A stretch of DNA of 64,000 nucleotides from Termitidicoccus mucosus (GTDB taxonomy: Bacteria > Verrucomicrobiota > Verrucomicrobiia > Opitutales > Opitutaceae): the NCBI RefSeq assembly GCF_038725785.1, contig NZ_CP109796.1, forward strand, positions 1,364,001 through 1,428,000, in the 5' to 3' direction. Under the pieces are notes generated by a model. It was given only the letters and a program-made list of their open reading frames with translations. It had not been told where the DNA came from and ran no database searches. Position 1 is the stretch's first letter. Each line of letters begins with the position of its first letter. Both the position numbers and the translations under genes were made by a program. Positions 4,742-57,258 of this stretch are shown here, piece after piece.

Positions 4742-5839
4742 ATGAATTCACTGGAAAATTTCCGCGCGATGATGAACCCGGGCCGCGGTGAAACACTCCC
4801 GCAATGGCTCCCTTTCGACCTGCCCGTGACGCCACCCATCGCCGACCGCATCGAGGCCCGTTTCGGCACGCGCGACGCGGCGCAGGCGTTCGACCTGGAT
4901 TTCCGTTACTGCGGCCCGCAACTCGCCGATGACCCGGAGCGCTGGCGCGCCGCCTTCGCCGCCCAAGGCATATCCCTGCCGCCCGATGCCGAGCTTCGCC
5001 CGATCGGCGCCGTCCTCGTTCCCCCCGCCCAGGCCGCCCACGATGGCGCCTATCACCTGCGCGAGAAATTCTACCCGCTGGCCTCCGTCACCACGGTCGG
5101 GCAACTGCGCTCGCTGCCCTGGCCCGATTTGGACACGGCGCTGACTGCGGGCACGCTCGCCGAGGATGTCGCCGCCATTCACGCCGCCGGCAAGGTCGCC
5201 GTTTGCAACATGGAAGTCACCGTCTTCGAATCCGCCTGGTATCGGCGCGGCATGGATGTGCTGTTCGAGGACCTGATCGAAGGCAATGAAATCGGCGCAT
5301 GGCTGCTGGACTGGTTCACCGAGTTTTCCGTGCGGCGCGCGCGTCTGGTGGCGCGGGCCGGCGTGGATGTCGTGGGGCTGGGGGACGACGTGGGCACGCA
5401 GCGCGGCATGATGATGTCAGTCCCTTTCTGGCGGCAGCACCTCAAACCGCGACTCAAGCGCGTGATTGACGCCCTGCGCGAAAACCAGACGCGCCCGCTG
5501 TGGGTCCGTTATCATTCCGACGGCGACATCCGGTCGGTCATTGACGAACTGGTCGAGATCGGCGTGGACATTTTGAACCCCGTGCAACCCGAATGCCTCC
5601 CGCCCGCCGAGGTGATTGCGGCACACAAGCACCATCTCAAATTCTGGGGCATGGTGGGCACGCAGACGACGATGCCGTTTGGCACACCCGACGAGGTGCG
5701 CGCGGTGGTGGCGGAGTGCGCGCGGTTCGCACGCGAGGGCGCGGGAATTGTCGTCGCGCCGACGCACGTCCTCGAACCGGACGTGCCTTGGGAAAACATC
5801 GAGGCGCTGGCGGACGCCGTCCGCGCCGCGCGACTCTGA
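4742..5839 (+). CDS. uroporphyrinogen decarboxylase-family protein
   Basis: 365 residues with the URO-D / methyltransferase TIM-barrel pattern: RMMN-like N-terminus (ENFRAMMNPGRGETLPQWLPFD), VVGLGDDVGTQRGMMMSVPFWRQHLKPRLKRVID in the middle, RYHSDGDIRSVIDELVEIGVDILNPVQPE and a C-terminal KFWGMVGTQTTMPFGTPDEV. In true haem enzymes this fold decarboxylates uroporphyrinogen III. The family also contains corrinoid-dependent methyltransferases, and many paralogues sit in sugar gene clusters of Planctomycetota, Verrucomicrobiota and Lentisphaerota with no known reaction. The context here (oxidoreductase, epimerases, transporter, no haem genes) argues against haem synthesis. It begins 91 bp after the previous gene. 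Confidence 0.82.
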   Translation: MNSLENFRAMMNPGRGETLPQWLPFDLPVTPPIADRIEARFGTRDAAQAFDLDFRYCGPQLADDPERWRAAFAAQGISLPPDAELRPIGAVLVPPAQAAHDGAYHLREKFYPLASVTTVGQLRSLPWPDLDTALTAGTLAEDVAAIHAAGKVAVCNMEVTVFESAWYRRGMDVLFEDLIEGNEIGAWLLDWFTEFSVRRARLVARAGVDVVGLGDDVGTQRGMMMSVPFWRQHLKPRLKRVIDALRENQTRPLWVRYHSDGDIRSVIDELVEIGVDILNPVQPECLPPAEVIAAHKHHLKFWGMVGTQTTMPFGTPDEVRAVVAECARFAREGAGIVVAPTHVLEPDVPWENIEALADAVRAARL

Positions 5840-5878
5840 GTCGCCGCCGTATGCCGGGATGGTCCGCCTTCCCTCGTA

Positions 5879-5908
5879 TTCTCTTGAATGAATAGAGCAG
5901 GACTTGCC
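5879..5908 (+). repeat. intergenic repeat copy A, possible operator
   Basis: This stretch begins TTCTCTTGAATGAATAGAG and matches 7182-7211 at about 24 of 30 positions when aligned by eye. It lies in the gap between the UroD-like and dehydrogenase genes. The shared core TGAATAGAG is also present on the minus strand of the divergent promoter region near 957-965. The pattern suggests a regulator-binding site repeated in front of selected genes of the cluster, or a small dispersed repeat. Confidence 0.4.
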
Positions 5909-5974
5909 CCGCATCGCAGGCATGAACATGTCTCGTGCTCCCTGCACAGCCTGCCTGTTTCACAACGCCACATC

Positions 5975-7087
5975 ATGCAATCCGCCCGCGCGCCACTTGT
6001 CACGCCAGCCACCCGTTCCCTCCATCGCTTTAGCGCCGATGACCATCGCTGCCGCATCGTCGCCGTCCTTTCCCCATTCGAGCTTGCGCATTTTTTCCCG
6101 GATGGACTGGGCGAAGCCGCGTCCGCGCATGGATTGCCGGAAATCATCCTGCGCCCCGTGCCTGAAAAAAACACCGAGCCCTGGGCGTGGGGTGAATTTC
6201 TGGAACAAGAACGTCCCGATGTCCTCATCGGCGGCTGGGACATGCCCGGGCTGCCCGCTCCGGATGAGGAGGGGCGCGGAGGCTGCCAAGCCATCCCGAA
6301 ACAACTCTGGCCCGGCTATGTATGTTTCCTCACCGGCACCCTGCGCAAAAAAATCCCCCGCTGCTGGATCGAGCAGGGGCTGCTGGTCTCCAACTGGGGC
6401 GATTCCATCAGCCGCACCGTGGCCGAGTCCGCGCTCATGTTGATTCTCGGCGCGCTTCGCTGCGTGGCCGCCAACCAGCACAATCTTCACCAGGACGGCG
6501 GCTGGAAACTCCCGCACCGCCCCGAGCAGAGTCTCTTCGGGCGCCGGGTCGGATTTCACGGTTTCGGGCGGGTGGCGCAGGCGCTGACCCGCCTGCTGCA
6601 ACCCTTCGGGGTTTCGCTGCGCACCTTCGCCCCCGGCACGCCGGAATCGGCATTTTTTGAATACGACGTGCACACATGCGCCACGATCGAGGAATTGTTT
6701 TCGTCCTCCGACGTGCTCGTGGAACTTGCCCCGCTTAATGACCACACCCAGGGGATTGTGGGGCGCGAACTTCTGGAACTGCTTCCGGAGGGCGCGGTGT
6801 TCGTGAACACAGGGCGCGGGCAGGTGGTGCGCGAAGCCGAGCTGCTCGAAGTCGCGCTCGCCCGCCGCCTCCGCGTGGCGCTCGATGTATTCGAGACCGA
6901 GCCGTTGCCGGCGGACTCGCCCCTGCGCGCGCACCCGGAGATTCTCCTTATGCCGCATCAAGGCGGCCCCACGCTCGACCGTTGCCGTGATGCCGGCGAT
7001 TTTGCCCTCCGCCAAGTCGCCGCCTGGCTGCGCGGCGAGACTCCCTCCGCCATCATCACCCTGCCCGTGTGGGATATGTCGTCCTGA
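5975..7087 (+). CDS. D-isomer-specific 2-hydroxyacid dehydrogenase
   Basis: About 370 residues from the ATG at 5975 (MQSARAPL). The frame opens at 5888, but the extra residues are unlike the family. The NAD-binding Rossmann unit is GRRVGFHGFGRVAQALTRLL. The catalytic triad is visible: Arg in VFVNTGRGQVV, Glu in DVFETEPLP and His in LMPHQGGPT. These enzymes reduce 2-oxoacids to D-2-hydroxyacids or the reverse in the cytoplasm. The MPHQGG form differs from the commoner TPHIGG but keeps the His. It probably handles a sugar-acid intermediate of the cluster (inference). Confidence 0.88.
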   Translation: MQSARAPLVTPATRSLHRFSADDHRCRIVAVLSPFELAHFFPDGLGEAASAHGLPEIILRPVPEKNTEPWAWGEFLEQERPDVLIGGWDMPGLPAPDEEGRGGCQAIPKQLWPGYVCFLTGTLRKKIPRCWIEQGLLVSNWGDSISRTVAESALMLILGALRCVAANQHNLHQDGGWKLPHRPEQSLFGRRVGFHGFGRVAQALTRLLQPFGVSLRTFAPGTPESAFFEYDVHTCATIEELFSSSDVLVELAPLNDHTQGIVGRELLELLPEGAVFVNTGRGQVVREAELLEVALARRLRVALDVFETEPLPADSPLRAHPEILLMPHQGGPTLDRCRDAGDFALRQVAAWLRGETPSAIITLPVWDMSS

Positions 7088-45283: not shown

Positions 45284-45862
45284 ATGTCCAAAGCGACCGC
45301 CACACTGGTTTCACCTGCGAAACAAAGCACCCTTGCCAAGGGGCGCGGGGGGAATCCTTTTTCGGCGATCCCTCCTCCGCGTGAGCTGGTGGATGCTTGC
45401 AATGAGGTGGAAACCTGGACCCGGCCCGAATTGCTTGCGCTGGCGGTGGCGCGAGGATGCGGGCACTACGCCCCGCAATGGCGGGAACTCCCGCCCGTCA
45501 AAGGCAGTTTGCCCAACGAGGTGCTGGGCTGCTGCTTGCTGCGTGGCCCGGCTGACGTTGAAACCTTCCGGGCCATCCGTTGCGCGGCTATGGTATTGAG
45601 CGATCTGCGCAATCGAGCGGACGGAATCGGCTGGACCGCCCGCCGTTTTCGGGTCGCAGGGCGGGCGATGCACATCGCGCGCCTTGGACTCACGGCGGAC
45701 ACTCACCCGGCGTATTGGCGGCGCGTGATCGATGCGCTCTCCCCTTTTGAGCCCGGCGAGCCTGAGTTTCTGCCCGGTGTGTCGCGCCTTGTTTCCGAAA
45801 CGCGCTGGACCGGGCCGGGATTGGGCGCCTCCCGGCAATGGCTGCGGCTGGGTGACGAATGA
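45284..45862 (+). CDS. unknown protein, first gene of a coupled pair
   Basis: 192 residues, no signal peptide or membrane segment. I do not recognise the family. It is rich in Arg, Trp and Pro, with a helical centre (DLRNRADGIGWTARRFRVAGRAMHIARLG). The stop overlaps the start of the nucleotidyltransferase-like gene as ATGA, so the two are translationally coupled, as in toxin-antitoxin or abortive-infection pairs where a short first gene precedes a nucleotidyltransferase. It sits just left of the relaxase gene in the mobile element. Confidence 0.65.
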   Translation: MSKATATLVSPAKQSTLAKGRGGNPFSAIPPPRELVDACNEVETWTRPELLALAVARGCGHYAPQWRELPPVKGSLPNEVLGCCLLRGPADVETFRAIRCAAMVLSDLRNRADGIGWTARRFRVAGRAMHIARLGLTADTHPAYWRRVIDALSPFEPGEPEFLPGVSRLVSETRWTGPGLGASRQWLRLGDE

Positions 45863-46467
45863 ACCCGGCCCAAGTTATAGCAGATACGCTGCACCGGCAT
45901 CTACAAGAGAGGACGGAACTTGTGGTTTTCGGGGCTGCGGCCCTCTTGCTCGACCATCGTTTCGCCGAGCGGATGGTGGGACGCCTGACTCACGACATCG
46001 ACATCATCGTTCCTGAGACCCGCGAACTACAGGTGAATACCGACCGCCAATTCTGGCACGCCTTGGAAGTTACGAATCGCGAATTGGAGCGCAAGAAGCT
46101 CTACATCACCCACATCTTCCCTGAAAACGAAGTCACGCTTACACCGGAATGGAAGCAGCATACCGTCGCATTGCTGAATCCGCAATGGCCCAAGCTTAAC
46201 CTTATCAGGCCGCATGTGCTCGATCTGATCGTTTCGAAAATGGGACGGGGCGATGTGGAGGATCAAGCCGACGTGCGTTCGATGCTGCGTCTGCACCGCG
46301 ATGTGGAAGGTCAGACGATCACGGCGGCGGAGGTTGCCGCAGCGGCCCAGCGGGCGCGAGTGCCGGAGGTCTATCGCGAGTTATTCCCTCGCGCCTCCGC
46401 TCAAATCATCGCGGCGGTAAGGGAAGCCGAAATCACGATTAGAAGCGGCCCGCGCATGGGCTTGTGA
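45859..46467 (+). CDS. nucleotidyltransferase-like protein (DUF6036-type)
   Basis: 202 residues. The N-terminus VVFGAAALLLDHRF followed by RLTHDIDIIVPE resembles the G-(G/S)-x-A-L ... R-x-T-x-D-I-D signature of minimal nucleotidyltransferases, with the two Asp of the metal site in DID. The remainder is helical, with LNLIRPHVLDLIVSKMGRGDVEDQADVRSML, a pattern frequent in the DUF6036 group. Such proteins modify RNA or proteins with nucleotides and often act as toxins in defence modules. Here it is coupled to the upstream unknown gene by an ATGA overlap. Activity and target are inferred only from the fold signature. Confidence 0.72.
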   Translation: MNPAQVIADTLHRHLQERTELVVFGAAALLLDHRFAERMVGRLTHDIDIIVPETRELQVNTDRQFWHALEVTNRELERKKLYITHIFPENEVTLTPEWKQHTVALLNPQWPKLNLIRPHVLDLIVSKMGRGDVEDQADVRSMLRLHRDVEGQTITAAEVAAAAQRARVPEVYRELFPRASAQIIAAVREAEITIRSGPRMGL

Positions 46468-46619: not shown

Positions 46620-46753
46620 GATAATTGAGGCATTTTTTGCCTGCGATTGCGGCTTTCGTGTTTGCCTGCTTTGCCAGGCTGAAAAAGTTCAAGGCGGAGG
46701 CTGATCCTGTGCTTCGTTTGTTTTGTTCAGGAAATGTTTCGGCTGGACACAGT

Positions 46754-49483
46754 ATGCAAGTATGTCATTATATAAGCCAACTGGTTCGCTTCGACAAGCC
46801 CTGCCGTCAGTTGCATGGAGCCGTGGAATACTTCCGCGAGCACCTCCGTGTGGGTGACTATTTGACCGAGGAAGGTCGTGCGGCAATGACCTGGGCGGGG
46901 CTGGGCGCGGAACGGCTGGGTTTGTCGGGCGGATGCGATCTCGTTGCCTTCCGGCGGCTGTGCCAGGGGCATCATCCGGCCACGGACGAAAAGCTCGGCG
47001 TCCGGGAAAAGGCCGACCGCCGGCTGTGCTACTTTGGGCAGATTTCGGCACCGAAAGACGTTTCGATCGCCTGCCTGGTGGGTGGCGACCAGCGCATCCT
47101 TGGATGGTGGAATGAAGCGGTCACGGAAACGTTGCAGGAGATTGAGGCAACCGTCGCCACGCGCGTCCGGAGCAAGGGAGTGAATCAGGACCGGATCACC
47201 GGCAACATGATCACCGCCGTCGTGACCCACGATGCGAGCCGCGCACTCGATCCCCAGCTTCACACGCATCTCTGTCTGCTGAATCTCACCTACGACGAGA
47301 CGGAGAAGCGGTGGAAGAGCGTCCAACCCTCCGGTTTCTACCACCACCCCGGCTATTTCCGCGAAGTCTGTTACAACAAGCTCGCCGAGCGGATGCTCGC
47401 CGCCGGCTACAATCTCGAACCTGCCCGCCGGATCGGTTTCAACATCGCGGGATTCTCGCCGGAGCTGCGCGAGACGTTCAGCAAGCGCCGCGAGGAAATC
47501 CTGCGCCGCGCCCGCGCGGCGGGCGTTTCCTCCCAAGCCGAATTGCAGGCGATTACGGCGGAGAGCCGGGCGAAGAAAACCAAGGCGACCGCCGCCGATC
47601 TCCGCGCCGGCTGGCTCAAGGAGGCGGGCGCGCACTTGGACTCGGTGCACCGGGTAATCGCGGCGGCGGGAGGACCGATCCCGCCGGTCCTGCGCGCCAA
47701 CCCCGCCGAAGTCATTGCTTCCGCCGAGGCGCACGTCTTCGAGCGCCGGTCGGTCGTGGATGAAAAGGTGCTCTTGCGGGAAGCGCTCGCCACCGGGCGG
47801 GGGCGCGTTTCCTTGTCGGACTTGAAGGCCGGGCTGGAAGCACGGGTTTCCGCTGGCGCACTCCTCCAGCATGGCAATCTGGTCGGATCTCCCGAGGCGC
47901 TTGCCTGCGAGCAGGAGTTCATCGCGTGGGTGAAATCCCAAACCCAGGGCTGCGGACCTTTGGGCCGGGTATCGGAAGACTCGAAGATTGCGCCTAATCA
48001 AGCCCGCGTGGTCGCGGGGATGATGGAATCCGAGTCCCGCGTGGTGATCCTCCAAGGTGATGCCGGCACCGGCAAAACCACCTGCCTGCGCCCCGTGGTT
48101 GCCGGTATCCGGGCGGCGGGTGGGCAGGTCTTCGGTTGCGCTCCGTCGGCCAGCGCCACGGATGTCTTACGCCGGGAGCTGACGCCCGAGGCGGACACGC
48201 TCCAGCAACTGCTCGTGAACGAATCGCTCCAGCAAAAGCTGCGAGGCAGCGTCATCGTGGTGGACGAGGCGGGGCTCATCTCCGCGCGCCAGATGCGCGA
48301 CCTCTGCCGGCTCGCGGCGGCGAATCAGAACCGGCTGATCCTGGTCGGCGACACCAAGCAGCACAGTTCTGTCGAAGCGGGCGACGCCCTGCGGTGTCTT
48401 CAGCAATACGGCAACGCGCCGGTTTTTCGGCTAACAGAGATTCACCGGCAGAAAGATCCCGCCTACCGGAACGCGGTGGCGCTCCTCGCCTGCGGGAAGG
48501 CTCAGGAAGCCTTCGATACGTTCGACCGGCTGGGCGCGGTGAAGGAAATCAAGCACACGCGCGCCCTCCTGCGGATCGCAGCGGACGATTATGTCCGCAC
48601 GTTCGTGGCCGGGAAAAGCTGCCTGGCGATTTCGCCGGTGTGGTCGGAAATCCATGCCTTCGCGGACGAGGTCCGCACCCGCCTCAAGGCACGCGGCGTC
48701 ATCACCGGGCTGGAGCGAAACGTGTCCACGGTGTTCTCCCTCCAGTGGACCCGCGAACAACTCCGCCGCGTCGAGCTTTATCAGCCGGGCGACGCGCTCA
48801 CGTTCCACCGCGCGGAAGGCGGATTTGCGAAGGGCGAGACCGTCTCCGTGGTGCGGCGTGATGTTTTCTCCCTGATCGTCCGCCGGGATGATGGTTCGCT
48901 GGTCCAACTCGATCCCCAGACCAATCGCGGTTTCGATGTCGGCATCGTCCGGCAGATCCCGGTGGCGGTCGGCGACCGGCTCTTGATTCGCGCCAACCGC
49001 AGAGAATCCCGGCTCAAGAACGGCGACTTGGTGGAAGTACAGGCGTTTACCCCGGAAGGCGGCATTGTCCTGCGGGATGGCCGGAATCTGCCGCCGGACT
49101 TCCGGCAGTTCAGCCACGGCTACGCCACGACCTCGCACGCCTCCCAAGGGAAAACGGTGGCCCGCGGACTTCTGCTCATGGCCGAGTCGGGGCTCGCCGC
49201 CGCCAACTTGAAGCAGGCTTACGTGAGCAATTCCCGGTTCGAGGAAAGCCAGATGATCTACACGACCGACCGCGCCGAGGCACGCGAGGCGATGGCGCGC
49301 GACGCCGACCGCAGACTCGTGACGGAACTGGTCTCGGAAGCGGCGGTGCCCTCGGCCCGAAAGGCTTTCCTCGCTCAACTCTATTCCTTCGGCGAGCTAT
49401 CCGGTGACGTGATGCTGCGCGGATGGAAGGAAGGTCCATCGGTCGCCCCCGAAACGCTGGCCACCGGGACGTTCGGACGATGA
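46754..49483 (+). CDS. MobF-type conjugative relaxase with helicase domain
   Basis: 909 residues from the ATG at 46754 (MQVCHYISQL); the frame is open from a TTG at 46625. The relaxase part shows AVEYFREHLRVGDYLTEEGR (region of the catalytic Tyr), the metal-binding His triad context THDASRALDPQLHTHLCLLN, and CYFGQISAPKDVSIACLVGG. A RecD/TraI-like helicase follows with Walker A GDAGTGKTTCLRP, Walker B VIVVDEAGLIS, and the C-terminal YATTSHASQGKTVARGLL. Such proteins nick oriT and unwind the strand for transfer. No secretion or coupling genes are seen nearby. The next gene overlaps it by four bases. Confidence 0.92.
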   Translation: MQVCHYISQLVRFDKPCRQLHGAVEYFREHLRVGDYLTEEGRAAMTWAGLGAERLGLSGGCDLVAFRRLCQGHHPATDEKLGVREKADRRLCYFGQISAPKDVSIACLVGGDQRILGWWNEAVTETLQEIEATVATRVRSKGVNQDRITGNMITAVVTHDASRALDPQLHTHLCLLNLTYDETEKRWKSVQPSGFYHHPGYFREVCYNKLAERMLAAGYNLEPARRIGFNIAGFSPELRETFSKRREEILRRARAAGVSSQAELQAITAESRAKKTKATAADLRAGWLKEAGAHLDSVHRVIAAAGGPIPPVLRANPAEVIASAEAHVFERRSVVDEKVLLREALATGRGRVSLSDLKAGLEARVSAGALLQHGNLVGSPEALACEQEFIAWVKSQTQGCGPLGRVSEDSKIAPNQARVVAGMMESESRVVILQGDAGTGKTTCLRPVVAGIRAAGGQVFGCAPSASATDVLRRELTPEADTLQQLLVNESLQQKLRGSVIVVDEAGLISARQMRDLCRLAAANQNRLILVGDTKQHSSVEAGDALRCLQQYGNAPVFRLTEIHRQKDPAYRNAVALLACGKAQEAFDTFDRLGAVKEIKHTRALLRIAADDYVRTFVAGKSCLAISPVWSEIHAFADEVRTRLKARGVITGLERNVSTVFSLQWTREQLRRVELYQPGDALTFHRAEGGFAKGETVSVVRRDVFSLIVRRDDGSLVQLDPQTNRGFDVGIVRQIPVAVGDRLLIRANRRESRLKNGDLVEVQAFTPEGGIVLRDGRNLPPDFRQFSHGYATTSHASQGKTVARGLLLMAESGLAAANLKQAYVSNSRFEESQMIYTTDRAEAREAMARDADRRLVTELVSEAAVPSARKAFLAQLYSFGELSGDVMLRGWKEGPSVAPETLATGTFGR

Positions 49484-49812
49484 CGGAGAAAACGCAGAAC
49501 ATGCCCGTCTGGGGACGGTTGGCGGACGAGAACCGCACGGCCATCGTGGTGCGTTTCGTGCTGCCGGATCGCACCGTCTCGCTCCCGTATCACACGCTGG
49601 TCCGGTGGGAGTTGTCCATCGGCGAAAGTGAAACGCTCGCGATTCAGGCGGCGGGTGTGCTCGTGACCGTGCGCGGCCGGCTGCTCGCCGTCCTGCGGGA
49701 CGGCCTGGATCAAGCCCGGCTGGAGCAGGTGCGCGCCCAAGGCGAACGGGCCGCGCTTCGTGCGGCACCGGGCGAACCGTGGATTCAGGGCATCGCCGTG
49801 GAGATAAAATGA
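49480..49812 (+). CDS. small protein of unknown function in the mobile element
   Basis: 110 residues beginning MTEKTQNMPVWGRLADENRT at the ATG at 49480, which overlaps the relaxase stop as ATGA. The frame is open further upstream, but the overlap favours this start. The middle alternates strand-like segments (TAIVVRFVLPDRTVSLPYHTL, LAIQAAGVLVTVRG). The coupling suggests a function related to the relaxase, possibly an accessory protein. No family is recognised. Confidence 0.72.
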   Translation: MTEKTQNMPVWGRLADENRTAIVVRFVLPDRTVSLPYHTLVRWELSIGESETLAIQAAGVLVTVRGRLLAVLRDGLDQARLEQVRAQGERAALRAAPGEPWIQGIAVEIK

Positions 49813-49901: not shown

Positions 49902-52900
49902 ATGGCCAAAAGGTCAGAACAACCTATACAGCTCGACCTCTTCGAGCACCTCACCCATGAGCGAACTTCTGAATTACGGACTGATGGCGGAGCGCCACTG
50001 GCGGGAGCATTGTCCGCGCCGGGTGCGGGAATTGGAGCGGAAGGGTCTGTTGCGAACAGCGCTCCTGGAAGCACAGGAACGGACGCTGGACGAAATGGAA
50101 ACGCTGGTGCGCGACCTGCGGAAGCAGGGGCTGACGCCGCAGCAGGCGCACGATCAGGCATGGGAAATGGTGCGCGAGAAATACCTCCTCCTCCCGACGG
50201 AGTCGCCGGAGTAACGCCGCGCAACCAGAACAACTACCGCATCACCACCGCCGACCGGCTCGGCGAGGGCGGGCTGAAGACCAAGTTCGAGCAGAACGTC
50301 GCGGCCATCGAATTGCTCCGCGCCATCGAGGCGAACGGCCGCGTCGCCACGCCGGAGCAAAAGGCCGCGCTGGTCAAATACACCGGCTGGGGCGGACTGC
50401 CTCAGGTATTCGCCGGGGAGGACGAGGCCCCGAAATGGAAAACGGAGCAGGCCCGCCTGAAGGAATTGCTGCTGCCGGATGAATACAAACAGGCGCGCGC
50501 CACGGTGCTCAACGCCCACTATACAGCAGGCACGGTCATTGAAGCCATGTATGCGGCGGTCACGCGGCTGGGTTTCAACGGTGGCCGTGTCCTCGAGCCC
50601 GCCTGCGGCCTGGGGCATTTTTTCGGACTCATGCCGGACGAAATGCGCGGGCGCTCGACCCTCACTGGCATCGAAATCGACCCGATCACCGCGCGGCTGG
50701 CGCGGATGCTCTACCCCGGTGCCGAAATCCATAATCAGCCGTTCGAGGAGGCCACGCTCGCGACCAACAGCTTCGACCTCGCCATCTCCAATGTGCCCTT
50801 CGGCGACTACGCGCCCTTCGACATGAAGCTCAACGCGCGGAAGTTTCATATCCACGACTACTTTTTTCTGGCGGCGGCGGAGCGGGTGCGGCCCGGCGGC
50901 TTGATCGCGTTCATCACCTCGCGCTTCACGCTCGACAAACAGTATCCGCATTTCCGGGAGACGCTGGCGAAGACTTGCGATCTGGTCGGCGCAATCCGGC
51001 TGCCGCACACGGCTTTTAAGAAGAACGCCAACACCGAAGTCACGACGGACATCTTCTTTCTGCGCAAGCGGGCACCGGGCGAAAAGCCTGGTGGGCCCGC
51101 GTGGCTCGAAAGCCGGCCGCTGGGTCAGGCGACAGAGGGAAACGCCATTTTCCTCAATGAGTATTACCACGTGAACCCCGCCATGTTGCTCGGGAAAATA
51201 GAGCAGGTGAAACACGGCATGTACGGACGAGAAGAGTCAAGGTTGGCCGACGATGGGCGCGATCTGGCCGAGGCGTTGGCGGGCGCGGTGGCGAAGCTGC
51301 CGGCCGGTATCTACCAACCGTTGACCGAAGCCCAGCTTGCGGCGGTGCGGCAGGTGATTCCGGCCCCGCCGGGTGTAAAACCCAACGCCTACACGCTCAC
51401 CGAGCACGGCGGCGGCGGCATCGCGGTCCGCGAGGGTGACGAGCTGCGTTTGCTCACCGATCTGTCACCACAGACCGCGCGTCGCATCCGCCGGCTCATC
51501 TACGTCCGCGACGCCGTGCGCGAGTGCCTGCAGACGCAGGTCGAAAACCATCCCGAAGAAGCGGTGTTGGCCGCCCGGTTTCGGCTCAACCAGGACTACG
51601 ATTATTTCGTAAACCAGTTCGGACCGATCTCCGCATCGGTCAATGTACGGGCCTTCGCGGGTGACCCGGATTTGCCACTCCTGCTCTCGTTGGAAAACTA
51701 CAACGAGAATACTAACACGGCCACGAAGACGGCGATCTTCCACGAGCGCACGATTCAAGCGCGCCAGCCGGTCATAAGCGTGAACGCCGCCAACGAGGCG
51801 TTGGTTGTCACACTCAATGAGAAGGGCCGGGTGGATTTGGAGCACATCGGAAAACTGCTCGGAAAATCTGAGAAGGAGTTTTTGCCGGAGCTTCAGGGCG
51901 CCATCTATTTCAATCCCGTCAGCAAACGTTGGGAGACCGACGACGAATACCTCTCGGGCAACGTCCGGGAAAAGCTCGCGGTCGCTGAACGACTGGCGAA
52001 GGAAGACGTCAGCTATCGTTTGCACGTCGAGGCGTTGCAGGCCGTCCAGCCGGCAGACCTGAAGGCCACGGAAATTGACGCGCGGCTGGGCGCGGCGTGG
52101 ATTCCCGCGGTGGATGTCGAGGCGTTCACGAAGGAACTGCTGCGCGTCCCAGACCATGGCAAACACGACGTCACGATCCGCCACGTGCCGCACCTCGCTT
52201 TGTGGACGGTCGAGGTCAGCCACTACGCCAAGACCGGCGTGGCCAACCGGAGCGAATGGGGCACGAACCGCGTTTCCGCCCATGAACTGCTCGAAGCGGC
52301 GCTCAATCTTCGCACGCCGACCGTCTATGATTACGACGAGAACAAGAACGCCATCGTCAATCCGACGGCGACCGAAGCCGCACGGGAGAAACAGCAGAAA
52401 ATCAAAGATCAGTTTGCCGAGTGGATCTGGCGGGACGACAGCCGGCGGGAACGCCTGCTCGCCTTCTACAACAAGGAATTCAACAACCTTCGGCTCCGCA
52501 CCTTCAGCGGCGACCACCTGACGCTGCCGGGCGCGAGCCCGACCATCACCCTGCGAACACACCAGAAGGCCGGCGTGTGGCGGATCATCCAATCGCCGAA
52601 TACGCTGCTCGCGCATGTCGTCGGCGCCGGCAAGACCTACACGATGGCGGCGGCGGGCATGGAATTGAAGCGCCTCGGGCTCGCCCGCAAACCGCTCTAC
52701 GCCGTGCCCAATCACATGCTCGGTCAGTTCTCGTCGGAACTGCTCACGCTCTATCCAGAAGCCAACATCCTCGCGGCGGGCAAGGACGATTTCGCCAGCG
52801 CGCGGCGTCGGGAACTCATGTCCCGGATTGCGACGAACAATTGGGATGCAGTCATTGTCACACACTCCGGTTTCGAGCGCTTACCGATGTCCGTAAAGGC

Positions 52901-55055
52901 ACAACGGGACTTTCTCGACGAACAGCTCGTGGAACTGGAGACCTCCATCCGCGAGCAGAAATCCGAGAAGTCGGACACCCGGATCGTCAAGGAACTGGAG
53001 CGGGCCAAAAAACGCCTCGAATTCAAAATCAAGAATCTCGCGGCCGAGCACCGGAAGGATGACACGCTCACCTTTGAGGAATTGGGCGTGGATCGGCTGT
53101 TCGTGGACGAGGCTCAGGCGTTCAAGAATCTTTTCTACACCACAAAAATGACCCGCGTGGCCGGGCTGCCGCAAACGGCGAGCGAACGCGCCTTCGACAT
53201 GTTCCTCAAAGTGCTGCATGTGCAGCGGTTGAACGACGGCGGCGGCGTGGTCTTCGCTACCGGCACGCCGATCTCGAATTCGATGGCGGAGATGTTTACG
53301 ATGCAGCGCTACCTCCAGATGCATACGTTGCGCGAGCGGCGGCTGGAGCATTTCGATTCGTGGAGCGGCACGCACGGCGAGACCGTCACTGCGATGGAGC
53401 TGGCCCCGGATGGGGCGGGGTATCGCCTCAACACGAGATTCGCGCGTTTCGTAAATGTCCCGGAGCTCATGCAGGTCTTCCGGCAGGTGGCTGATGTCCA
53501 GACGGCGGACATGCTCCAGTTGCCGACGCCGTCCCTCGAAGGAGGCAAGCCGCGCATCGTGAATGCGCCGTGCTCGCCGGAGTTGAAGGCATTCGTGACG
53601 ACGCTCGCCAAGCGGGCCGAGAAGTTGAAAGGCGGGGCAGTCGATCCACGGGATGACAACATGCTCAAAATTACCGGCGAAGGTCGGAAGGCGGCGCTCG
53701 ATCTGCGGCTGGTGCGGTCGCGTGCGCCAGACCATGCGGACAGCAAGGTCAACCAGGCTGTCCGGAAAATATTCGCCATTTGGAAGGAGACCCGTGAGCA
53801 ACGACTGACCCAGATGATATTCTGCGACCTTTCGACGCCGAAGGTGGATGGTCGTGGCTTCTCGGTTTACAATGACGTGAAGATAAAGCTAGTCGCGCTC
53901 GGCGTCCCGGCGGCGGAAATCCAGTTCATTCAGGATCACGACTCCGATGCGGCCAAGGTGTCGCTTTTCAAGGACGTGCGGGCGGGCAAGGTCCGCGTCC
54001 TCATGGGTTCCACGACCAAGATGGGGGCGGGCACGAACGTGCAGGCGAAGCTCGTGGCGCTCCATCATTTGGATGCGCCGTGGCGGCCGGCCGACATCGA
54101 GCAACGCGAGGGCCGGATCAAACGGCAGGGCAACGAAAACAAGACGGTGCGGATTTTTCGTTATGTCACCGAAGGCAGCTTCGACGCCTACATGTGGCAG
54201 GTGCTGGAAACCAAGGCCAAGTTCATCGCCCAGGTGATGACCGGCCAGTCCACGGCCCGGCGCATCGAGGACCTGGACTCGCCCGCGCTCACGTATGCCG
54301 AGGTCAAGGCCATCGCCAGCGGCAACCCGATGGTGATCGAGAAAGCGAAGGTGGATGCCGAGGTGATGAAGCTCGCGCGGTTGCGGGCGGAACACAGCGA
54401 GTCGCAATTCGGCAATCGGCGGCGCGTCCTGATGATGCAGGAGGACACCGCGCGAATCGAGCGGCGCATTGCCGCAATGGAGCACGACCTGAAGGTCAGG
54501 AAGGACACCCAGGGCGACAAGTTCGTCATGGTCTTGGATGGCAAAAAATACACCGACCGAACCAAGGCTGGCACCGCGCTGGTGTATCTCGTCGAAGACC
54601 ATAAGACCGACCACCTGCTCGGTCGCACTGCGCCGGCGGTGTTGGGCGAATTGGCGGGATTCAAAGTCGAATTCCGCTCAACCCTGGCGGATAAACTCAC
54701 GTTGCGAGGACAAACCGAATACTCGGCAAACGTCTCCGCCTCGCCCGTCGGCATCATCACGTCGCTGGAGCACGCCATCCGCTCCATCGAGGAAAGCTTG
54801 GCCCGCTCCCGCGCGGATTTGGAGCGCACGCGGCAGGATATGGCCAGCCTGTCGTCGCTCTCCGGTGGGGTGTGGGAACATGAGGAGCACTACCGAGAAC
54901 TGCTCAAACGGCAGGCCGAACTCGTGGAGGCTCTGGACATCACCAAGAACCAAGCTTCGGCCCAACTGGACACCACCGAGAACGAGACGGAAATGCCGGT
55001 GGAAAAAATCGAAATGGAAGAGACAATTACGGCCGCGGTTCCGGTCGCCGTATAA
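49902..55055 (+). CDS. large DNA methylase/SNF2-type helicase (DarB-like)
   Basis: 1,717 residues. The N-terminus MAKRSEQPIQLDLFEH carries QLDLF, a match to the beta-clamp-binding consensus, followed by a Gly/Ala-rich linker to about residue 105. A conserved region (KTKFEQNVAAIELLRAIEAN, YTGWGGLPQVF) precedes an adenine-methylase domain with motif I RVLEPACGLGHFF and SNVPFGDY in place of NPPF. A superfamily-2 helicase follows: GAGKT near 910, DEAQ near 1068, GTPISNSMAEMFTMQRYL and TTKMGAGTNVQ ... QREGRIKRQGN near 1400. Such fused proteins occur on phages and mobile elements and protect DNA from restriction. It overlaps a second reading frame at its 5' end. Confidence 0.9.
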   Translation: MAKRSEQPIQLDLFEHLTHERTSELRTDGGAPLAGALSAPGAGIGAEGSVANSAPGSTGTDAGRNGNAGARPAEAGADAAAGARSGMGNGAREIPPPPDGVAGVTPRNQNNYRITTADRLGEGGLKTKFEQNVAAIELLRAIEANGRVATPEQKAALVKYTGWGGLPQVFAGEDEAPKWKTEQARLKELLLPDEYKQARATVLNAHYTAGTVIEAMYAAVTRLGFNGGRVLEPACGLGHFFGLMPDEMRGRSTLTGIEIDPITARLARMLYPGAEIHNQPFEEATLATNSFDLAISNVPFGDYAPFDMKLNARKFHIHDYFFLAAAERVRPGGLIAFITSRFTLDKQYPHFRETLAKTCDLVGAIRLPHTAFKKNANTEVTTDIFFLRKRAPGEKPGGPAWLESRPLGQATEGNAIFLNEYYHVNPAMLLGKIEQVKHGMYGREESRLADDGRDLAEALAGAVAKLPAGIYQPLTEAQLAAVRQVIPAPPGVKPNAYTLTEHGGGGIAVREGDELRLLTDLSPQTARRIRRLIYVRDAVRECLQTQVENHPEEAVLAARFRLNQDYDYFVNQFGPISASVNVRAFAGDPDLPLLLSLENYNENTNTATKTAIFHERTIQARQPVISVNAANEALVVTLNEKGRVDLEHIGKLLGKSEKEFLPELQGAIYFNPVSKRWETDDEYLSGNVREKLAVAERLAKEDVSYRLHVEALQAVQPADLKATEIDARLGAAWIPAVDVEAFTKELLRVPDHGKHDVTIRHVPHLALWTVEVSHYAKTGVANRSEWGTNRVSAHELLEAALNLRTPTVYDYDENKNAIVNPTATEAAREKQQKIKDQFAEWIWRDDSRRERLLAFYNKEFNNLRLRTFSGDHLTLPGASPTITLRTHQKAGVWRIIQSPNTLLAHVVGAGKTYTMAAAGMELKRLGLARKPLYAVPNHMLGQFSSELLTLYPEANILAAGKDDFASARRRELMSRIATNNWDAVIVTHSGFERLPMSVKAQRDFLDEQLVELETSIREQKSEKSDTRIVKELERAKKRLEFKIKNLAAEHRKDDTLTFEELGVDRLFVDEAQAFKNLFYTTKMTRVAGLPQTASERAFDMFLKVLHVQRLNDGGGVVFATGTPISNSMAEMFTMQRYLQMHTLRERRLEHFDSWSGTHGETVTAMELAPDGAGYRLNTRFARFVNVPELMQVFRQVADVQTADMLQLPTPSLEGGKPRIVNAPCSPELKAFVTTLAKRAEKLKGGAVDPRDDNMLKITGEGRKAALDLRLVRSRAPDHADSKVNQAVRKIFAIWKETREQRLTQMIFCDLSTPKVDGRGFSVYNDVKIKLVALGVPAAEIQFIQDHDSDAAKVSLFKDVRAGKVRVLMGSTTKMGAGTNVQAKLVALHHLDAPWRPADIEQREGRIKRQGNENKTVRIFRYVTEGSFDAYMWQVLETKAKFIAQVMTGQSTARRIEDLDSPALTYAEVKAIASGNPMVIEKAKVDAEVMKLARLRAEHSESQFGNRRRVLMMQEDTARIERRIAAMEHDLKVRKDTQGDKFVMVLDGKKYTDRTKAGTALVYLVEDHKTDHLLGRTAPAVLGELAGFKVEFRSTLADKLTLRGQTEYSANVSASPVGIITSLEHAIRSIEESLARSRADLERTRQDMASLSSLSGGVWEHEEHYRELLKRQAELVEALDITKNQASAQLDTTENETEMPVEKIEMEETITAAVPVAV
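49957..50214 (+). CDS. small helical protein overlapping the methylase/helicase gene in another frame
   Basis: 85 residues from the ATG at 49957 (MSELLNYGLMAERHW), stop at 50214. The sequence is Leu-, Glu- and Arg-rich and looks helical (RELERKGLLRTALLEAQERT, LDEMETLVRDLRKQGLTPQQ). It lies wholly inside the 5' part of the methylase/helicase gene, in a different frame. Codons in this frame end mostly in G or C as elsewhere in the window, whereas the larger frame in the same stretch gives a repetitive Gly/Ala/Pro linker. I infer that the small gene is real and the linker of the big protein is encoded over it. Confidence 0.65.
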   Translation: MSELLNYGLMAERHWREHCPRRVRELERKGLLRTALLEAQERTLDEMETLVRDLRKQGLTPQQAHDQAWEMVREKYLLLPTESPE

Positions 55056-55272: not shown

Positions 55273-55647
55273 ATGAACGCCGTGCGGCCAAACTTCACTT
55301 TGGAGGCATCCAACTCCTTCCGGCCATCGACTGAAAACGCTTCCGTCATGCCGCTCCGAAAGGACGTGGGAAACAACTGCACGGCCGCCAAGACCAAGGC
55401 GACTGCCGAGTGGCAGAATGAGCTCTGGAAGCGCTGGCCTCGTGAGGAATGCTGGCCGGCGAAAATGGACGTTTACGAAGCAGCGGCCTACCTGCGTGTC
55501 AGCCCTTACACCATCCGGCGCGCCGTGACCGTGGCGCGAGATGGGAAAGCACGCCTCGCACACCAACGACTCGGGGCACTCTATCGCATCCGCAAAATCG
55601 ATCTCGATGCGTATGGCGCGGTGCCCGGCCGGGAATTCCACGCCTGA
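55273..55647 (+). CDS. excisionase-like helix-turn-helix protein
   Basis: 124 residues from the ATG at 55273 (MNAVRPNF); a shorter start at 55348 (MPLRKD) is possible. The C-terminal 55 residues MDVYEAAAYLRVSPYTIRRA ... LYRIRKIDLDAYGAV form the winged-helix 'DNA-binding, excisionase family' pattern, in which the EAAxYLxVS helix is followed by a basic wing and YRIRKIDLDAY. It should bend DNA near the att site and direct excision by the adjacent integrase. Its last 67 bases overlap the end of that integrase gene on the other strand. Confidence 0.78.
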   Translation: MNAVRPNFTLEASNSFRPSTENASVMPLRKDVGNNCTAAKTKATAEWQNELWKRWPREECWPAKMDVYEAAAYLRVSPYTIRRAVTVARDGKARLAHQRLGALYRIRKIDLDAYGAVPGREFHA

Positions 55648-56996
55648 CTCGCTTTCTTTTGAGTCGCCGCCTGGATGCGAATAATGCCTTTGAGCACCTT
55701 GGTCGGTCGGATTGGGGCTGCCACCGGGGCAGGCATGATTCTGAAATACTCCTGCCCCTGCTCCGGCGTCACGCCGAGACCCCGATAAGAATTGTGCAGC
55801 GTGTAAGCCGATCCTCGATGACGCATGATGAGAGCCGTCTTGGCCGCGCTCTGATGCTTGGCGACGTGATAGGTGCAGAACGTGCGGCGACGGGCATTCC
55901 AAGGCCATTTTTTCAACGCCGCTCTCGATTCGGGAAGTCGTAGCAGATATTTGATGGGAAGCAGTGCGAGTTCGTCGGCATTACTCCGGTCCTCGATGGA
56001 TGCGAGCACACGAAGACGGTCCCAACGCCGGTCATAATTCTTCGGACGCAAACGACCTTCCGAGGGAGCATAGGCGGCCCACCACGCCCAAAAGTTCTCT
56101 TCAAGACCGTCGATCACTTCGCGCTTCTCGGTCTTTGCCACGTTGGCGGGAATAACGACCTCCTTGGTCTGCGGATAGACAAAGCCTGCCTCGAAATCCG
56201 CCATCTCGTCATCCGCACGAACGCCGGCAACGAGCTGCACGACTTCATGGGCGACCAGGTCCGGATCGTAGCGTTCGGCAGCGCGAATGTAGCGGACGAC
56301 ATAATCAAGCCGCAGGAACTCGATCTCCTTTTTCGTCTCCTTCGGCAGCATCCGCTTTTTGATGCCGGCCGCGGGATTGACGGGGATTTCGTGCTCTTCC
56401 TGCACGAGCCAATTGAAGAACTCGCAGATGGCGGTCTTGTGGTTGCGCTTGGTGCGGGACTCGACGTCCGGCATTTCCTTCACGTAGGTGAGGATTTCCT
56501 GGCGGGTAACGGTGTCCGCGTAGCGTTCGCCAAACCCGGCCTTGATGAAGGCTCCGCCGCGCGATTTGAGGTCGCTGTAATGCCGGCCTTCGCCGTGGCG
56601 GAGTTTTACGTCGGCCAGGAACGACAGGAAGAGTTCCGCCAACTTGCGTTTGGGCTTGTCCGGATGATGGAGGCGCCAGAACTTGGCGACCTCGATCAGC
56701 GGGACGCCACCGACGAGTTTCAGCGCGCCCTCGTAGTCCTCGGCCGCCTTGCGGTCGAAAAGGAACTGACCGGAGCCGGTCTTCTCATGCTGCTCGCGGA
56801 TGCTCGGTTTGTCCGCTTCCGCCTTGGCTTTCGATTCGTAGTAGGGTCGGTGCCGTTGCAGCCTGACCTTGCCGGCAGCGTCGAGAACAGAAGTGCCGTC
56901 CGGCTTCAGCTTAGGGGTGGAATAGCGGAGATACCAGCAAGCCGGTTGCCCGTTCGCTCTCTTCGCGCGATCAAGGAAGGGACCGGTGATTTCCAT
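55581..56996 (-). CDS. tyrosine recombinase / integrase
   Basis: 471 residues. An N-terminal SAM-like region with GERYADTVTRQEILTYVKEMPD and TKRNHKTAICEFFNWL precedes the catalytic core: the first Arg in LVAGVRADDEMADF, the H/R region RRRTFCTYHVAKHQSAAKTA followed by LIMRHRGSAYTLHNSYRGL, in which the Tyr is the likely nucleophile. The HxxR box is degenerate, as in a branch of long integrases of genomic islands. It is transcribed away from the tRNA-Asp gene, 186 bp from it, and together with the excisionase-like gene marks the recombination end of the element. Confidence 0.87.
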   Translation of the reverse strand: MEITGPFLDRAKRANGQPACWYLRYSTPKLKPDGTSVLDAAGKVRLQRHRPYYESKAKAEADKPSIREQHEKTGSGQFLFDRKAAEDYEGALKLVGGVPLIEVAKFWRLHHPDKPKRKLAELFLSFLADVKLRHGEGRHYSDLKSRGGAFIKAGFGERYADTVTRQEILTYVKEMPDVESRTKRNHKTAICEFFNWLVQEEHEIPVNPAAGIKKRMLPKETKKEIEFLRLDYVVRYIRAAERYDPDLVAHEVVQLVAGVRADDEMADFEAGFVYPQTKEVVIPANVAKTEKREVIDGLEENFWAWWAAYAPSEGRLRPKNYDRRWDRLRVLASIEDRSNADELALLPIKYLLRLPESRAALKKWPWNARRRTFCTYHVAKHQSAAKTALIMRHRGSAYTLHNSYRGLGVTPEQGQEYFRIMPAPVAAPIRPTKVLKGIIRIQAATQKKASQAWNSRPGTAPYASRSILRMR

Positions 56997-57181: not shown

Positions 57182-57258
57182 TGGCGGGATGGACGGGACT
57201 CGAACCCGCGACCTTCTGCGTGACAGGCAGACGCTCTAACCAGCTGAGCTACCACCCC
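57182..57258 (-). tRNA. tRNA-Asp (anticodon GTC)
   Basis: On the minus strand a full cloverleaf is readable in 77 nt: acceptor arm GGGGTGG with CCATCCC and an encoded G-CCA end, D-arm beginning GCTCAGCTGGTTAGAGC, anticodon loop CTGTCAC giving GTC, T-loop TTCGAGT. All stems pair apart from wobbles. The integrase gene next to it suggests that the 3' end served as attachment site for the mobile element. Confidence 0.97.

Follow-up and report, generated by a model that had tools for sequence, protein, structure and literature searches.

Organization of the locus

The stretch of DNA analysed here (the window) comprises 64,000 nucleotides of Termitidicoccus mucosus (NZ_CP109796.1, positions 1,364,001 to 1,428,000). 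It contains a large ORF for a DarB-like methyltransferase/SNF2-type helicase, and a small ORF lies inside its 5′ part in the +1 frame (Table 1). The small ORF starts with ATG and ends with TAA at 50212-50214. An ORF listing places its start at an upstream TTG (49885, 109 aa), but 71 of 88 element-type homologues have an ATG exactly at the position of 49957. In the window family the T of the large-frame CAT codon is the middle base of the small ATG. Across the overlap the large frame encodes only a Gly/Ala/Pro-rich segment. The small protein matches no Pfam family above its cut-off and gave no match in NCBIfam. The preliminary description had reported an 85-aa helical protein nested within a linker of the methylase/helicase, and this observation is confirmed.

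Table 1. Features of the locus in window coordinates.
Feature	Position	Strand	Description and evidence
DUF6036 nucleotidyltransferase-like gene	45859-46467		Upstream of the relaxase; preceded by a 192-aa ORF
TrwC-type relaxase/helicase	46625-49483	+	PF08751, E 8.8e-70; a homologue in 30 of 85 element-type loci, some of which are too short to show it
129-aa protein	49423-49812	+	Upstream of the large ORF; a homologue in 29 of 85 element-type loci
Large ORF, DarB-like methyltransferase/SNF2-type helicase	49902-55055	+	ATG, 1,717 aa; phrog_10089 'DarB-like antirestriction', E=0 over residues 57-1700
QLDLF motif, sliding-clamp-binding type	49929-49943	+	Residues 10-14 of the large protein
Small nested gene	49957-50214	+	85 aa, four predicted helices; distant relative of TnpV
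Overlap, large frame	49957-50214	+	Gly/Ala/Pro-rich linker, residues about 19-104
Methyltransferase core of the large protein	50589-50801	+	Residues 230-300; PF13649, 22.4 bits, below its cut-off of 27
Helicase C-terminal region of the large protein	53946-54131	+	Residues 1349-1410; PF00271, 21.9 bits, below its cut-off of 23.5
Putative integrase next to a tRNA-Asp	55581-56996 and 57182-57258		Integrase by eye, no Pfam match

The nested arrangement recurs in the same frame in other elements

Whether the small protein has homologues in other mobile elements had been named in advance as a condition for both frames being coding, and such homologues were found. Among 95 related genomes, the small protein occurs at 14 places in 8 genomes. 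This count includes the window itself and two more copies in its genome (near positions 317,858 and 7,544,496 of contig C1), which are 67-69% identical in the small protein. At all 14 places the large protein aligns through the same region. A scan of genome contigs gave 100 relatives, of which 80 were kept; 65 of these are Verrucomicrobiota, mostly Opitutaceae/Opitutae. In an even draw of 387 genomes of the phylum, 9 had the small gene. A scan of viral contigs with the single protein found nothing, whereas the same scan with the alignment gave 69 matches. A tblastn search of plasmids with the 85-aa protein found nothing at 1e-3.

Named phages carrying the small gene are PBC5, POI1126, PEp14, Atu_ph08, Itty13, Pavtok and Stean (13 records). 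In the six that were read (not Stean), it lies in an open DarB-like frame and is not annotated as a gene of its own. In five of the six the large frame is open for 4,112-5,010 codons as far as the fetched stretch goes; in PBC5 it is split into two CDSs and the small frame is read as the end of the first.

For frame analysis, 18 of 174 loci were removed as duplicates by identical small-gene DNA, leaving 156. The large frame is open across the small gene in 155 of these, the exception being one locus (L051) with a stop, while the third frame is open in only 1. A methylase is detectable in 153 loci, and the frame offset is identical in all 153. Two loci in which no methylase is detected downstream by tblastn (L088, 6001-6252; L123, 6001-6336) retain an intact small gene and are probably remnants. 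The loci are divided below into element-type and phage-type; the element-type group is defined only by an open large frame of under 400 nt upstream of the small gene and holds at least three strays (L088, L123 and PBC5). At a locus of Geminisphaera colitermitum TAV2 (L008/L084), the small gene carries an internal stop while the large frame stays open.

A survey seeded on the methylase alone (182 relatives, best 80 kept) showed that 67 of 80 viral loci have the small gene, all 67 nested in the same frame. The threshold was loose (E up to 0.05), but 63 of the 67 matches have E of 1e-3 or less and 56 of 1e-5 or less. This survey overlaps with the viral scan above, 30 of the 80 contig names being shared. 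Of the 13 HMM-negative loci, 11 were read by eye (L187 and L259 were not): seven have a divergent nested protein in the same frame, one has another ORF there, and three have no ORF of 60 codons. Of 13 chosen plasmid and phage loci, ten have a nested ORF in that frame, five by HMM (two of them weak, E 0.03 and 0.06) and five by eye or annotation. In one, from Acaryochloris, a TnpV gene sits beside the large gene, not inside it; two, a Roseomonas plasmid and a Streptococcus element, show none. P1 DarB also lacks a nested homologue (best E 0.15) and has only about 44 residues before the methylase region. A giant DarB-like ORF of a Bacteroides phage (L285) has an unrelated-looking nested ORF at 5662-5992, in the same frame just before the methylase; it is a single case and was not counted.

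The small frame is under purifying selection and the large frame is kept open

The frame with mainly synonymous substitutions had been proposed beforehand as the criterion for the selected one. Codons were aligned after exclusion of L008, L084, L086 and of sequences with N or a stop, which removed 2 of 156 loci. Over 50 independent pairs (nucleotide divergence 2-25%), differences fall mostly on the third position of the small frame (308/228/724 by codon position). Changes silent in the small frame but not the large one occur at 0.226 per site, changes altering both at 0.070, and changes altering only the small protein at 0.050. With a fixed transition weight of 2.5 assumed, omega is 0.31 [0.26-0.36] for the small frame and 1.40 [1.18-1.64] for the large frame. 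The small frame is therefore under purifying selection as protein, whereas the large-frame residues in the overlap are not themselves selected. Such selection is not needed for a linker, but its absence weakens the case for the large frame, whose translation through the overlap rests on the open frame and the selected flanks.

The large frame nevertheless appears to be used. Synonymous reshuffling of the small gene with pooled codon usage predicts an open large frame in 27.9 of 86 element-type and 30.0 of 68 phage-type loci, against 85 and 68 observed; openness exceeds reshuffling by either codon usage tried. Before the small gene, the pN/pS of the large frame is 0.47 [0.39-0.56] in element-type loci (33 pairs, third position most variable) and 0.54 over the last 17 codons; in phages it is 0.40 over 100 codons and 0.56 over 400. 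The methylase has 0.23 and 0.21. In codon usage, the small frame fits the methylase region better than the large frame in the overlap does in 73 of 74 and 66 of 67 loci.

N-terminal motif, initiation site and predicted structures

Of 87 element-type segments just before the small ATG, 74 match a Q-x-[DSN]-[LFMI]-[FLIM] pattern (QLDLF in 53), for which the shuffled rate is 0.005. Eight more hold QLELF, which was added after the misses were seen, giving 82 of 87; the remaining five are cut, masked or strays. QLDLF is called 'a canonical CBM sequence' in PMC11381352. Binding to the clamp was not assayed, and the motif occurs within 60 residues upstream of the small gene in 0 of 68 phage-type loci, so that clamp docking, if real, is not general.

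A Shine-Dalgarno match of 4 nt or more precedes the small start in 65 of 68 phage-type loci, against 447 of 2,782 background ATGs in the same frame. The enrichment is modest in element-type loci (28 of 88 against 282 of 1,771). In phage-type loci an ATG lies within one residue of the profile start in 54 of 68.

AlphaFold gives an ordered small protein with four helices (pLDDT 88.5). In the large protein, residues 1-103 fall below 50 and most of the following 197 are confident. The expected contrast between an ordered product in one frame and a disordered one in the other is thus what the predictions give. No solved structure matches the small protein well: the best E in the PDB was 0.13 by sequence and 1.2 by fold. 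Structural alignment (VIA-align) gave a best Z of 6.4 to 2apl (66 residues, rmsd 2.7) and about 4 to IcmS/IcmW/DotL chains, values within what is common for helical models, so no function is read from them. As 2apl might belong to DUF1896, PF08989 was searched in the window's own genome; nothing was found there or in the control genomes, which makes the search uninformative. A viral structure library gave one match below 1e-3, Q8W6J4_2, 43% identical.

Relation to TnpV and a second nested family in plasmids

The small protein is similar in length and helical core to TnpV (PF14198), the small protein of Tn4451-type transposons. It scores 18.3 bits against a cut-off of 27 and is called a distant relative rather than a member. 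Seventeen of 19 members of the small-protein family give PF14198 matches at E up to 1 (best 1.5e-5), and hhalign to a six-member profile of TnpV-type proteins gave prob 86 and E 4.6e-6 for this one comparison over 55 columns. The Acaryochloris protein passes the Pfam cut-off (29.5 of 27 bits). Annotated TnpV genes in Cohnella and Monoglobus plasmids are nested in the same frame, and the large-type frame has 0 stops across them. TnpV also occurs without a methylase around it, for example after a recombinase gene: three TnpV genes on other plasmids have no convincing methylase nearby (best E 0.14), and the corresponding frame has 3, 4 and 4 stops.

A second nested family in Pseudomonadota plasmids repeats the pattern. 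In 7 of 7 plasmids the small gene lies in an open large frame, and the upstream large-frame segment shares Q-x-x-F-D-F in all seven. Two close pairs differ by 10/3/19 and 5/4/17 over the small codon positions, the small protein being 92% identical against 74% and 81% for the large frame. In six plasmids the frame is that of the annotated methylase or helicase; in the seventh (L286) it is interrupted 161 nt after the small gene, and the shorter annotated methylase is in another frame. Annotators disagree, some listing the small gene and starting the methylase after it, others running the helicase CDS through it. The methylase/helicase CDSs of three Pseudomonas plasmids (L267, L287, L288) appear to be annotated without their true N-terminus, which would lie before the nested gene. 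The plasmid family of Pseudomonas and the phage 8P-type family match each other (prob 91, E 1.1e-6) but the window family only marginally or not (prob 15 and 4), and the nested genes are not assigned here to a single family.

A probable dual-coding locus

The preliminary description had interpreted the overlap as overprinting, with an ordered gene in one frame and a disordered linker in the other, and this interpretation is supported. It had also been specified that large-protein homologues starting after the linker would count against two coding frames; in the window's own family the large protein most likely starts before the linker, although some relatives start after it or lack it (P1 DarB, Acaryochloris). 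With high confidence, the locus is read as dual-coding. The sequence evidence supports a small, folded, strongly conserved four-helix protein in one frame and, in the other, a disordered tether between an N-terminal clamp-binding-type motif and the methyltransferase/helicase of a DarB-like anti-restriction protein. That the linker tethers a clamp-binding tail to the enzyme is inference, as is the remainder of the model. Both proteins would be made from one mRNA, the large one from the upstream start and the small one by internal initiation at its own conserved ATG, usually with a Shine-Dalgarno site in phages and in the plasmids read and mostly without one in the Verrucomicrobiota elements; expression of either protein was not examined. 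The large protein would protect incoming element DNA by methylation, with the QLDLF tail docking it on the recipient's sliding clamp. Its role in protecting transferred DNA follows from the DarB family (PMC5512222), anti-restriction activity not having been measured. The small protein would be a co-produced partner or regulator whose gene cannot be separated from that of the enzyme, a function on which no test was made. Because the tether needs only length and flexibility, it can be overprinted on the small gene. Codon usage and the TnpV genes that stand alone favour the small gene as the older layer, over which the large ORF was probably extended.

Other explanations were considered. The large protein could start after the small gene, its open upstream frame being an accident of GC-rich codons. 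The annotation of P. putida p12969-2 and of three further Pseudomonas plasmids, the Acaryochloris gene, which does start there, and the unconstrained large-frame residues in the overlap are consistent with this view. It is nonetheless very unlikely given the excess of open large frames over reshuffling, the stops in that frame of stand-alone TnpV genes, the selected 5′ segment with its conserved motif, and the annotations that run through the small gene; in most phage-type loci the large frame is also open for more than a thousand bases upstream. Ribosomal frameshifting from the large start into the small frame, which would fuse the QLDLF tail to the small protein as well, is suggested by the adjacency of tail and small gene and by the small frame often being open for some codons upstream. 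This is even less likely, as a stop lies within three codons before the chosen small start in 17 of 156 loci and the ATG is conserved and, in phages, has a Shine-Dalgarno site.

A further alternative accepts dual coding but takes the small protein for an excisionase-like DNA-binding protein serving excision of the element, as postulated for TnpV of Tn4451. The distant relation to TnpV speaks for it, but it is considered unlikely: the linkage seen is to the methylase/helicase, also in phages, and the window has a separate HTH_17 protein beside its putative integrase. No DNA-binding fold was recognised, which does not exclude one.

DarB-like methylase-helicase 'polyvalent' proteins (Iyer et al. 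2017, PMC5512222) are found in phages and conjugative elements, and the large protein resembles them over nearly its whole length, methyltransferase then helicase. The terms overlap, TnpV, frameshift and small protein do not occur in the text of PMC5512222 examined, and no description of the overlap was seen in literature searches or in passages, rather than whole papers, of PMC9144972, PMC3158075, PMC5009743, PMC11381352 and PMC13299392. Complete small genes inside another gene in another frame are known from the embedded Rz/Rz1 spanins of phages, Rz1 being described for phage JC1 (PMC9144972), where a DarB-like protein is listed among the structural proteins found. The proteins are unrelated; here one partner is a disordered linker of a giant enzyme, and the pair occurs in phages, plasmids and chromosomes.

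Long overlapping genes in bacteria are usually doubted because their conservation is shallow. Here the same overlap, in the same frame, is kept between Verrucomicrobiota genomes and proteobacterial phages and plasmids, with a clear selection signal. If the reading is true, a number of annotated methylases of this class are cut short at their N-terminus or hide an unannotated gene, and an unstudied small protein is tied to anti-restriction. A more tentative possibility, judged somewhat less likely than not, is that a single ancient overprinting event put a TnpV-like gene inside the leader of DarB-like methylase/helicases before these spread among phages, plasmids and integrative elements; no methylase tree with the nested gene mapped on it was built. 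In this view the nested gene, in divergent forms, would be a general, mostly unannotated partner of this whole class of anti-restriction enzymes across several phyla, and one of the most widely conserved nested gene pairs in bacteria.

Putative integrase and tRNA gene downstream of the nested pair

No exact repeat of the tRNA-Asp end of 14 nt or more was found elsewhere in the window. The position of the putative integrase next to the tRNA-Asp is as in elements that insert at tRNA genes.
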